The position numbers and the translations under genes were made by a program. Below, in pieces: positions 1-5,523 of a stretch of 32,431 bases of DNA (the first letter of the stretch is position 1; the number at the start of each line of letters is the position of its first letter). The DNA comes from Neptuniibacter caesariensis (GTDB lineage: Bacteria > Pseudomonadota > Gammaproteobacteria > Pseudomonadales > Balneatricaceae): positions 853,600-886,030 of the forward strand of contig NZ_CH724126.1 in the NCBI RefSeq assembly GCF_000153345.1. The letters are read 5' to 3'. The notes under the pieces are model-generated. The model had not been told where the DNA came from. It was given only the letters and a program-made list of their open reading frames with translations, and did not search any database.

Positions 1-76
1 GGGTCGTTAGCTCAGTCGGTAGAGCAGTTGGCTTTTAACCAATTGGTCATAGGTTCGAATCCTATACGACCCACCA
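1..76 (+). tRNA. tRNA-Lys (anticodon UUU)
   Basis: Complete 76-nt tRNA with the 3' CCA encoded. The acceptor stem pairs GGGTCGT (1-7) with ACGACCC (67-73). The anticodon loop reads CTTTTAA (32-38) with TTT at 34-36, so it decodes AAA/AAG lysine codons. The T arm carries GGTTCGAATCC. The last 19 nt (58-76) are duplicated exactly at 236-254 as part of the repeat described below. The window starts at the first base of the tRNA, so its promoter and any upstream tRNAs are not visible. Confidence 0.98.
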
Positions 77-358
77 CTTTCTTAATTTCTACACATTTTT
101 TTATTTTCTATATACAAGATAGTTGTGCCTTTCTGTCGTATAGGGTGAGAACCGTACCCGTAGGGAGGTTCGATTCGTAGGGCGTAGCCCGAAGAAAACA
201 GCGGAGCTTGCGACGCTGGCCCGCAGGGCATTAGTAATCCTATACGACCCACCACTTTCTTAATTTCTACACATTTTTTTATTTGCTATAAGCAAGATAG
301 TTGCGCATTTCTGTCGTATAGGGTGAGAACCGTACCCGTAGTGAGGTTTGATTCGTAG
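58..358 (+). repeat. 178-bp-period repeat starting inside the tRNA-Lys 3' end (tyrT/rtT-like)
   Basis: Bases 58-180 recur at 236-358 with an exact offset of 178 bp, no gaps, and about seven mismatches in 123 positions by eye. The identity begins at A58 in the tRNA T loop, so each copy starts with the last 19 nt of the tRNA including CCA; the five bases before differ (gttcg versus ttagt). Bases 181-235 separate the copies and are not repeated after the second. The same geometry, a 178-bp repeat beginning with 19 bp of tRNA 3' end, is what I recall for the E. coli tyrT locus, whose repeat is processed to rtT RNA. That parallel is from memory and not tested. Confidence 0.9.
61..144 (+). repeat. 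Inverted copy of the tRNA 3' strand within the repeat
   Basis: CCTATACGAC (61-70, tRNA T stem/acceptor 3' strand) is the perfect reverse complement of GTCGTATAGG (135-144). The second repeat copy keeps the pair at 239-248 and 313-322. The reverse complement of 135-157 reads GGTTC, five bases, then CTATACGAC, so it looks like a decayed inverted tRNA T-arm/acceptor half. In a read-through transcript the inverted copy could compete with the tRNA 5' strand for the 3' strand. Confidence 0.75.
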
Positions 359-389
359 AGCTCGGCGTTGGAAGCACCTCCTACACAAT

Positions 390-408
390 CCTGCCGTGCT
401 GGTTTTTT
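390..408 (+). terminator. Terminator-like hairpin in REP unit 1
   Basis: CCTGC (390-394) pairs with GCTGG (398-402, one G-T wobble) over a CGT loop, followed by six T residues. It could end transcripts from tRNA-Lys. Confidence 0.5.
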
Positions 409-482
409 ATGCCTGCTAGAAACGCGCGTGGGAGCGGCATCTTGCCGCGAGGACTCGGTGCTGGAAGCACCTCCTACACAAT

Positions 483-503
483 CCAGCCATGTGCTGGTTT
501 TTT
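483..503 (+). terminator. Terminator-like hairpin in REP unit 2
   Basis: CCAGC (483-487) and GCTGG (493-497) form a perfect 5-bp stem over CATGT, followed by six T residues (498-503). The stem is short, but the same structure is conserved in all three units. Confidence 0.5.
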
Positions 504-577
504 ATGCCTGCTAGAAACTTGCGTGGGAGCGGAATCTTGCCGCGAGGGCTCGGCGCTGGAAGCGCCTCCTACAACAT

Positions 578-598
578 CCTGCTATGTGCTGGTTTTTT
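578..598 (+). terminator. Terminator-like hairpin in REP unit 3
   Basis: CCTGC (578-582) pairs with GCTGG (588-592) with one wobble over TATGT, followed by six T residues. It is the last of the three tandem terminator-like structures before the diguanylate cyclase gene. Confidence 0.5.
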
Positions 599-772
599 AT
601 GCCTGAAAGAAGCATGGTAGGAGCGGCATCTTGCCGCGAAAGTCGGTGTAGGAAGCACCGACTGGAAAACCCTAGCATTCTACGAACTCGTATCTAGAAA
701 CTAGTGTCTATATTGATCCTACCTGCTACATTTAAATAACTACAAAAAATATGGCTTTAGTAAGGGCTTTTT

Positions 773-1708
773 ATGCTTCATCCGGATCAGCGAGTATTTG
801 AGGATAAGGATGGTCTTGTGCCATTAGATAAATGGCAGAAAACAGTCGATGTTATGGCGCGTATCTTTCAAGCGCCAGCAGGATTTGTCGTCCAGTATAC
901 GCCACTGGGCTATCAAGTTGTTATTGCCAGCAATCAGGAATCTAACCCCTACCCAGCAGGTGTTGAGATCTCTCCTGATACGAATATCTTTTGCAAGAAG
1001 GTTGTGCAGCAAGGTGAAGCGCTTTATGTTCACAACGCCCCTGAAGAGCCTGAGTGGGATACAAACCCTGAGGTAGCAGAGGATGGCTTCAGGTCCTATT
1101 TAGGCCTGCCGGTGAATTGGCCTTCGGGTGAGCCGTTTGGCACCATTTGTGTTATGGATTATGAAGCCACCGACTATCGATCCGATTATGTGGATCTTGT
1201 GGGTGAGCTTAGAGATCTGATCGAAGCGGATCTTGAGATCCTGTCACAGTTCCAGGAGATCAGTAACCTGGCGATGACCGATGATCTGACGGGCTTATAT
1301 AACCGCCGCGGCTTTATGACCGTGGCTTCGCACTACACAGTGCTGGCTAAGCGCTCAGGGCTCTCATTGGGTTTGCTGTATCTGGATATGGATGGCCTAA
1401 AAGAGATTAATGATCAGCAGGGGCATAGTGCTGGTGATCAGGCACTCAGGACTCTGGCAACAGCAATAAGGTCTGTTATCAGGGAGAATGATGTTCCCGC
1501 AAGGTTATCGGGGGATGAGTTTGTGATTCTGGCGGTGGCTAGGGATAAGATTGAGTTGGATACGCTGTCTGAAAGGATCCGCTCTGTGATGAAAGAGAAT
1601 AGCTTAAGTGTGAGTGTAGGCGGTGTACTAATTGATGCAGGACGTACACTGGAGGAGTGGTTGCAGCTCGCGGACAAAAAAATGTACGAACACAAACACT
1701 CCTCCTGA
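773..1708 (+). CDS. GAF-like sensor diguanylate cyclase (GGDEF domain)
   Basis: Predicted cytoplasmic enzyme that makes cyclic di-GMP from two GTP. The 311-residue protein has an N-terminal GAF-like sensor region (about residues 25-160, with the GLPV...GTICVMD pattern typical of such domains) and a C-terminal GGDEF domain opening with TDDLTGLYNRRGF. The signature is SGDEF at 246-250, a variant with the first Gly changed; the rest of the active-site loop (ARLSGDEF) is normal. An inhibitory I-site REND (237-240) sits the expected five residues upstream, so product inhibition is plausible. No membrane segment is seen, so the sensed signal is internal and unknown. The start has AAGGG about 8 nt upstream. 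It ends four bases short of the convergent greB gene. Confidence 0.9.
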   Translation: MLHPDQRVFEDKDGLVPLDKWQKTVDVMARIFQAPAGFVVQYTPLGYQVVIASNQESNPYPAGVEISPDTNIFCKKVVQQGEALYVHNAPEEPEWDTNPEVAEDGFRSYLGLPVNWPSGEPFGTICVMDYEATDYRSDYVDLVGELRDLIEADLEILSQFQEISNLAMTDDLTGLYNRRGFMTVASHYTVLAKRSGLSLGLLYLDMDGLKEINDQQGHSAGDQALRTLATAIRSVIRENDVPARLSGDEFVILAVARDKIELDTLSERIRSVMKENSLSVSVGGVLIDAGRTLEEWLQLADKKMYEHKHSS

Positions 1709-3446: not shown

Positions 3447-4273
3447 ATGCGGTGGAAGATTCCCAGATTAACATCTGCTGTTAAGTCTAGCGTCTCCAGG
3501 TTCAGAAGACGCTGGCGAGCTTCCTCTTTCAAGCGCTGCCCATGGGGTGTCATAGCAAGCAGTGAATCAATCTCTTCTTCACCGTTCAACTGGAATTGAA
3601 AATTAACCGATTCGGTCCGCTCAAGGCTGAAATAATCTTTAAGCGTGGCCGCCGGGTCAAAATGGCTCTCGCGAACGCTCTCATAGATAGCTTCGCGTAG
3701 TTCCAATAGATGTTTAGCGCCGGGCCATGCTACCAAGAGGTATCCTTCGCTTTTTAGCGGTTTAGCCAGAGCTTCCGGCATCAGCCGGCTGAACAGAACT
3801 AGCTGAAGATCAAGGGAGTTTTGCGGTACCGGTGTCGCTGCGCCTGAAGCAACCAGCCAGGTAATCTGCTTACTGCGTGAGCAAGCGGCTTTAACCGCAT
3901 GCTTCGAGATGTCGAGGCCAGTGATAAGGGGTGATGAGCCATGTGCAGTCAGATGTTGTTGCAGTCGATCGGTGTAATAGCCTTCCCCGCAACCCATATC
4001 CAGAATACAAGGTTCAGGTTTGCTGCTAAGGAGTTCGGCGCACAGCTGGTTTACCTTATCGGATAAAGGTTTATAGAAACCATTATTCAGAAAGCGCCGG
4101 CGAGCCTGAACCATCTCGGGGTTGTCGCCTGGATCTTTGGAGCGCTTCTTATGTGCTAGTAACAGGTTCCAGTAGCCCTGTCGTGCTGCATCGAAGCTAT
4201 GATTGGCTTCGCAGCGAAGGTTTTTATCATTCTGAACCAGCGGCGCTTCACAGACAGGGCAGGATAACTGCAT
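3443..4273 (-). CDS. rlmA: 23S rRNA (guanine-N1)-methyltransferase RlmA
   Basis: RlmA methylates N1 of a guanine in hairpin 35 of 23S rRNA (G745 in E. coli) using S-adenosylmethionine. The N-terminal zinc finger is visible: C5, C8, C21 and H25, counted from the ATG at 4273. It is followed by the family signature HKRSKDPGDNPEMVQARRRFL and the SAM-binding motif ILDMGCGEGYYTDRL. A GTG one codon upstream (4276) lies nearer to an AAGGG sequence and could also serve as start; I prefer the ATG because MQLSCPVC aligns with the MSFSCPLC start of E. coli RlmA. The gene begins just after the dapE stop codon. Confidence 0.93.
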   Translation of the reverse strand: MQLSCPVCEAPLVQNDKNLRCEANHSFDAARQGYWNLLLAHKKRSKDPGDNPEMVQARRRFLNNGFYKPLSDKVNQLCAELLSSKPEPCILDMGCGEGYYTDRLQQHLTAHGSSPLITGLDISKHAVKAACSRSKQITWLVASGAATPVPQNSLDLQLVLFSRLMPEALAKPLKSEGYLLVAWPGAKHLLELREAIYESVRESHFDPAATLKDYFSLERTESVNFQFQLNGEEEIDSLLAMTPHGQRLKEEARQRLLNLETLDLTADVNLGIFHRI

Positions 4274-4282
4274 CACGTGCGC

Positions 4283-5523
<1,241 letters not shown>

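Follow-up and report, generated by a model that had tools for sequence, protein, structure and literature searches.

The tRNA-Lys locus and its repeat

The window, i.e. the whole stretch of 32,431 nt from Neptuniibacter caesariensis that was analyzed, opens with a tRNA-Lys(UUU) gene, in whose 3' part begins a direct repeat of 126 nt found by repeat search (58-183 against 236-361, 94% identity, spacing 178). Both copies start with AATCCTATACGACCCACCA, which is the last 19 nt of the gene; its bases 58-76 are the first copy of what is called here the tail. A preliminary description of this DNA had reported two copies offset by 178 bp, each opening with these 19 nt, and the repeat was confirmed, with the correction that the second copy does not end at 358 but reaches 361 and is incomplete. 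The following features have been assigned to the locus, with their basis in brackets.

1-76, plus strand: tRNA-Lys(UUU) gene with encoded CCA (ARAGORN; Rfam tRNA, 78 bits)
58-235, plus strand: first unit, complete, 178 bp, composed of tail, AT-rich spacer, antitail and hairpin body (direct repeat)
77-134, plus strand: AT-rich spacer (sequence)
124-254, plus strand: match to Rfam RtT (RF00391), 42.5 bits against a cut-off of 45, model positions 1-130
135-146, plus strand: antitail GTCGTATAGGGT, partner of 237-248 in predicted helix P1 (folds, inverted repeat, covariation of P1)
149-171, plus strand: predicted hairpin H1, GAACC...GGTTC (fold, alignment)
174-196, plus strand: predicted hairpin H2, core GGGC-GTA-GCCC (fold)
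199-218, plus strand: predicted hairpin H3, CAGCGGAGCTTGCGACGCTG, with tandem G.A (fold; both sides changed in 8 of 9 H3 pairs)
219-229, plus strand: predicted hairpin H4, GCCC-GCA-GGGC (fold, alignment)
236-254, plus strand: repeated 19-nt tail including CCA, at which the 3' end of an RtT-like RNA is predicted (repeat; the RtT model ends at 254)
236-361, plus strand: second unit, incomplete (126 of 178 bp), broken off inside H2 (direct repeat)
361-679, no strand assigned: REP/BIME-like array with units of about 95 bp, a neighbor outside the element (direct repeats)

The antitail at 135-146 is able to pair with the 3' strand of tRNA-Lys itself as well, and the T-arm motif GGTTCGA recurs in the 3' side of H1 extended by the next two bases, GA (to 173). 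The unit tails in the window enclose 159 bp only. The terminator scan called no intrinsic terminator in the spacer 77-134, in contrast to many relatives, its sole call being at 483-497, and no promoter was found in window positions 1-800. Matches to 58-361 in this genome are the window itself, a 37-nt stretch behind tRNA-Arg and the tail of the other tRNA-Lys gene, behind which no tail copy is found.

The neighboring array, which we take to be of the REP/BIME kind, is joined straight onto the truncated second unit, and its own units carry hairpins and T-runs. REP/BIME elements resemble the tRNA-linked unit in their short hairpins, and a REP-like array adjoins the unit, but they have no tie to a tRNA tail, and the 361-679 array of 95-bp units belongs to another family of repeats. 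While REP/BIME elements are dispersed intergenic palindromes without such a tie, all six matches of the model R1 in this genome lie in tRNA-linked arrays.

Relation to the RtT RNA of Escherichia coli

RtT is a known family, and RefSeq places it beside E. coli tRNA-Pro as well. The Rfam model RtT matches 124-254 over its full length with an E-value of 8.2e-7, its 42.5 bits being 2.5 bits under the cut-off of 45, and three other units of the same genome lie above the cut-off: the Ser-GGA unit (53.9 bits), a copy 3.9 kb further (53.5 bits) and the Val-GAC unit (51.5 bits). Judged from sequence, the window unit can be classed as an RtT-like homologue below the cut-off for strict Rfam membership. 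As in RtT, it follows a tRNA and has its orientation, each of its tandem units opens with the final 19 bp of the tRNA (the second unit being truncated), and its secondary structure is shared with the E. coli units in a 24-sequence alignment including two of them.

The units of the E. coli K-12 tyrT-tyrV region carry their parts in the same order as the window unit; the antitail, the GATGAGAA...GGTTCGA core, the hairpins, the tail starting from base 58, the CCA in the tail and the arrangement as tandem copies are all common to both. The window unit differs in that its tail and antitail are of the tRNA-Lys type, its second copy is truncated, its score is just under the cut-off, and its spacer is, by eye, unrelated. 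The likeness to the tyrT repeat proposed in the preliminary description was thus borne out as homology, on the Rfam match and the common parts found when the two repeats were compared, and this takes the place of the convergent tRNA 3'-end duplication that it had offered as one possibility. The annotated rttR gene (1287066-1287236, minus strand) starts 8 nt past the tRNA, and its 3' end, at 1287066, coincides with the final A of the CCA in the tail; by analogy, the end of the small RNA expected from the window unit, formerly put at 235, would be moved to the second CCA (254).

The expected presence in close relatives was found: the RtT model matches at E<=0.001 in all 11 genomes of the same genus and in 23 of 57 relatives, 22 of which are above the cut-off, and among 14 control genomes E. 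coli alone has a match. When a unit behind tRNA-Pro was used as a query, matches were obtained in 5375 of 5426 E. coli genomes. An origin from phage or plasmid was rejected, the window sequence 77-361 having no match in phages or plasmids and an E. coli unit none in phages.

RtT-family RNAs of Actinobacillus pleuropneumoniae are reported to lie near tRNA-Asn and tRNA-Lys and to have been detected by RT-PCR, with Northern signals (PMC4986893). Like the window unit they lie beside tRNAs other than tRNA-Tyr, and unlike it they are placed upstream of the tRNA genes; the text consulted does not mention a match of the tail to the local tRNA (PMC4986893). A tandem-GA motif has already been noted in RtT (PMC7657543), and rtT-like members are reported inside a BIME cluster (PMC2965389).

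Predicted structure and signs of selection on it

The sequence 135-254 is predicted to fold at -49.9 kcal/mol (z -4.08, with none of 200 shuffles as good), antitail and tail forming a 12-bp helix and CCACCA being left unpaired. Not every single fold is as striking, the z-scores of three other units being -2.92 (E. coli), -1.63 and -1.75. A hand-drawn structure was judged on 24 sequences against 500 shuffles. Paired cells amounted to 79.6% against 68.7% in shuffles, pairs with double changes to 21 against 14.2, and the covariation score to 0.327 against 0.147, each value being reached by none of the 500 shuffles; a measure of further pair types was not above shuffles in the same test (112 of 500). 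Structures slid along the alignment gave far lower scores than the hand-drawn one. RNAalifold alone recovered P1, H3 and H4, with double changes in 9 of 18 pairs, but the H1 and H2 of the drawing did not appear; in the 24-sequence alignment the outer pairs of P1 are frequently open.

Among 94 non-redundant sequences of the 144 R1 matches, G-U pairs outnumber A-C pairs in H1-H4 (57 against 17; in H4, 18 against 7, nearly all at one pair), while in P1 the two are about equal (59 against 49). Since RNA tolerates G-U but not A-C, the tRNA-sense strand appears to be the selected one. The G-U excess together with the covariation points to selection at the RNA level, although the same strand as single-stranded DNA would give the same G-U/A-C signal.

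Units behind other tRNAs

The tRNAs examined for tail copies were all 38 of genome G000, 58 of 58 of G006 and 63 of the 75 listed for G007. These three genomes contain 77 tRNAs behind which the next 420 nt hold no other tRNA, and for 11 of the 77 the tRNA's own 3'-terminal 19 nt recur downstream at 15 or more of 19 positions; because mismatched tails give a mean of 0.3 and a maximum of 2 in 50 shuffles, the tail copy is not attributable to chance. In the present genome, local tail copies are found behind tRNA-Lys (the window), Val-GAC, Gln-CUG, Phe, one initiator Met and Ser-GGA, and degenerate ones, matched also by model R1, behind Arg-CCG and Pro-UGG; the six R1 matches lie behind Lys, Val, Pro and Arg tRNAs, with two in the Ser array. 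A preference for tRNAs with AATC tails was considered and is not supported: such tails occur in 4 of 6 isotypes that have a copy and in 10 of 30 that have none (Fisher p 0.14).

In the loci scanned, 47 units with a tail match of at least 16/19 were collected around 29 tRNAs (Lys 14, Val 8, Tyr 8, Ser 7, Gln 3, Pro 3, Phe 2, Met 1 and Arg 1). A typical unit has an antitail complementary to the 3' strand of its own tRNA, then hairpins, then the tail. The tail agrees with the local tRNA at 19 of 19 positions in 32 units, at 18 in 9, at 17 in 5 and at 16 in 1. In all 47 the match goes no further 5' than base 58; 37 open with AAT, and the remaining ones are changed within the first three letters. 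The unit length varies from 144 to 208 bp, and 178 bp occurs in seven units, three from E. coli and four behind tRNA-Lys. Since the length varies in this way, the 178 bp common to this locus and tyrT is coincidental, and what holds throughout is the edge at base 58; of the two numbers to which the preliminary description had drawn attention, the 19 nt, running from base 58 to CCA with an edge kept in every unit, retains its significance, while the 178 loses it, a variable spacing being what that description had itself regarded as counting against it.

Within arrays, the tails differ at 10 of 456 sites and the remaining sequence at 214 of 3620, the tails having been pre-selected for their match. 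The E. coli unit between tyrT and tyrV has in common with others 117-119 of 147-150 aligned non-tail sites, with tails at 19/19. Where the T stem of tRNA-Lys is CCTGT (L038 and L040), the tail copy and the antitail are both changed accordingly; in genome G025 one P1 pair is broken. Identity of the hairpin bodies is 0.75 for the same tRNA type across genomes (35 pairs), against 0.70 for different types in one genome (16 pairs) and 0.68 for different types in different genomes (101 pairs), and these values do not support a recent spread within one genome.

Distribution among bacteria

In the class, RtT matches were found in at least 66 of 369 genomes and R1 matches in at least 58, these counts being lower bounds with 8-10 candidates scored per genome. 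From RtT matches chosen without using the tail, 29 loci outside the present genome were inspected: a same-strand upstream tRNA is present at 26, and the tail agrees with that tRNA at 16 or more of 19 positions in 23 of the 26, the other three being L183, L202 and L207. The three loci without an upstream tRNA include two near a contig end. The suggestion of a general class of tRNA-tail elements, made in the preliminary description, is upheld by these 23 tails, by the 11 own-tail copies among 77 tRNAs and by the following pattern matches in other phyla.

A scan with a degenerate pattern, one genome per species, detected at least 119 stretches, 80 of which were given as loci; by our own arithmetic, about one match is expected by chance in random sequence. 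Besides Gammaproteobacteria, the record titles name Bacteroidota and Verrucomicrobiota, and many of the records are metagenome bins. The 80 loci listed contain 93 pattern matches, 20 of them without a tRNA within 300 nt upstream. Among the 66 first units with a tRNA at these loci, 55 agree with the tRNA in at least 9 of the 11 tail positions that the pattern leaves free: 40 of 43 in Gammaproteobacteria and others (mismatched control mean 3.67, maximum 9), 12 of 20 in the Bacteroidota/Verrucomicrobiota group (control 0.84, maximum 3) and 3 of 3 odd ones. The grouping was made by title and sequence, and L287, titled Proteobacteria, was placed with Verrucomicrobiota, its unit being like that of L211. 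Exact tails occur in the named isolates Mongoliitalea lutea (L212) and Cecembia rubra (L250), and no upstream tRNA was found for the units of Ekhidna lutea. Antitail pairing beyond the fixed bases exceeds the control in the Bacteroidota group, at 4.38 of 8 (control 3.42, maximum 4.13), and does so clearly in the others, at 5.52 (control 3.51, maximum 3.89). Model R1 matches 20 of 30 non-gamma loci at E<=0.001, with scores helped by the bases that the pattern imposes, and at 14 Bacteroidota/Verrucomicrobiota loci Rfam at its cut-offs gives tRNA and rRNA only.

The Bacteroidota/Verrucomicrobiota tails were also used to consider copying of a mature, CCA-bearing tRNA by reverse transcription. Among the 12 exact tails, that of L281 stands behind a gene that itself encodes CCA. 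Of the remaining 11, 10 are by our reading without CCA, in agreement with their genes, and that of L212 carries a CCA that its gene does not encode. Because tails lack CCA where the genes lack it, such copying is unlikely.

Interpretation

From the observed homology, architecture, covariation and match of the tail to the local tRNA, we think it probable that the window unit is a Lys-adapted homologue of E. coli RtT (rttR) RNA, a structured RNA of the same transcript as the tRNA, with ends built from the tRNA 3' half and released by tRNA processing. The RNA would be made in one transcript with tRNA-Lys; the antitail, a complement of the T-stem and the acceptor 3' strand, would pair with the second tail (the copy of bases 58-76) in a 12-bp helix leaving CCACCA free, and hairpins with tandem G.A pairs would replace the T-loop. 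Nucleases of tRNA processing may then release the RNA so that its 3' end is formed by the CCA of the tail, in line with the RefSeq annotation of rttR, and the participation of RNase P and RNase E is likewise suggested by the E. coli annotation. Tandem copies may have arisen by unequal recombination between repeated units. The most likely role would be that of a tRNA 3'-end mimic occupying or buffering tRNA-binding or tRNA-processing factors. Several results count against this explanation: the Rfam score under the cut-off, the near-equal G-U and A-C numbers in P1 and its often open outer pairs, the measure of further pair types, the incomplete recovery of the structure by RNAalifold, the weak z-scores of two other units, the negative promoter search in 1-800 and the fold of the window RNA together with the tRNA, in which the antitail prefers the tRNA's own tail.

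That fold suggests instead a strand-exchange switch controlling tRNA maturation in cis, in which the antitail takes the 3' half of the tRNA, as is possible because the two tails are identical, and the 5' acceptor strand of the tRNA pairs with the second tail. Exactly these pairings appear in the minimum-energy fold of 1-254; in 29 tRNA-plus-unit sequences the tRNA 3' strand pairs downstream in 21, within the tRNA in 7 and with neither in 1, and both antitail and tail follow the local tRNA. Near-equal energies are, however, expected from the identity of the tails alone, and the folds had no shuffled control and leave out tertiary contacts of the tRNA, its modifications and folding during transcription. 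Moreover, the antitail may seldom be transcribed, because in many units a terminator-like hairpin and a T-run precede it, and we regard the switch as quite unlikely.

Two other readings give the RNA no role of its own. Elements integrating at tRNA 3' ends have attachment sites that directly copy the 3' part of the tRNA, T-loop onwards, and the window unit resembles these in what it copies, so that the units could be integrase relics or landing sites (att-like 19-bp cores, recombination in the T-loop) with incidental RNA structure. The sharp edge at base 58 in 47 of 47 units agrees with this, as do foreign genes between tail copies of the Ser array (L121) and behind tRNA-Arg (L123). But the units differ from attachment sites in being short, in their structure and tandem arrangement and in their fit to tRNAs of many types; related bodies stand behind different tRNAs with each tail fitted to its own tRNA, there are compensatory changes and a G-U excess, and body identity, which peaks between units of one tRNA type from different genomes, fits descent over recent spread. 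This DNA-level explanation is improbable. It is likewise unlikely that the units are functionless, degenerate duplicates of tRNA genes kept alike by gene conversion: the tRNA-like pseudo-copies in the initiator Met unit (L030), chimeras of a tRNA 5' part and a unit body joined at GGTTCGA (L072, L122) and the truncation of some arrays, that of the window included, would be expected of such by-products, but homologous bodies recur across families, H3 shows compensatory change, and the E. coli tyrT-tyrV unit differs at about one fifth of non-tail aligned sites while its tail is still 19/19.

Returning to an RtT-like RNA as the preferred explanation, it looks as if related elements, each copying its own tRNA, stand behind many bacterial tRNA genes, with E. 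coli tyrT as one case of a widespread family. A wider proposal, tentative and in our view rather doubtful, places RtT as a branch within a class of tRNA-tail RNAs that spans several phyla (Gammaproteobacteria, Bacteroidota, Verrucomicrobiota and possibly further groups). These RNAs would rebuild the T-arm and acceptor strand of the preceding tRNA, using an inverted T-arm with tandem G.A (GGATGAGAACC) and holding a cluster of hairpins in the T-loop, and would act as strand-exchange devices in cis or as tRNA-end mimics in trans, tuning tRNA maturation or sensing. In the openly licensed literature, a scope outside which most subscription papers lie, we found no statement of the rule that the tail matches the local tRNA; as far as that literature goes, the copying of the local tRNA by tail and antitail is new, and so are the Bacteroidota and Verrucomicrobiota forms. 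If correct, rtT would be one instance of a general rule and not a peculiarity of E. coli tyrT, the rule being that a structured RNA has ends copied from the neighboring tRNA and kept matching as the tRNA changes; many natural variants would become available for comparison with rtT, and its role would be testable at several tRNAs. Database names would also mislead, as is suggested by the RefSeq note "processed from tyrT transcript", which sits on the RtT unit behind E. coli tRNA-Pro (L330:1554-1687).

Additional observations

In the Ser-GGA array (L121:1806-3598 and 4172-4996), Pfam finds an RtcB ligase and an RF-1 domain protein, which we take to be PrfH-like, between tail copies, and a weak GIY-YIG match, below the Pfam cut-off, lies beside these genes. 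A UvrD-like helicase (behind tRNA-Arg, L123) and Tubulin/FtsZ-domain and WYL-domain proteins stand beside tRNA-Arg tail copies at L123 and L122, and we read these tRNA tails as having been used as insertion points. No integrase was seen among the ORFs read between the tails at L121 and L123, which are part of the ORFs there. RtT units without a tRNA within 20 kb (L179, L180) are read as having Arg-type tails displaced by insertions.

Behind tRNA-Phe (L013, L159) the hairpin body is, as read by eye, inverted between the tails. At L072:1109 onwards (tRNA-Lys) and L122 near 4500 (tRNA-Arg), a 5' part is fused to the hairpin body exactly at GGTTCGA, which looks like recombination at this motif. 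Of the tRNA-like pseudo-copies behind the initiator tRNA-Met (L030), one carries hairpins in its T-loop and the one after it lacks them. A tandem of the 10-mer AACCCAGCCG follows the other tRNA-Lys gene of the present genome (L003, about 1560-1770).
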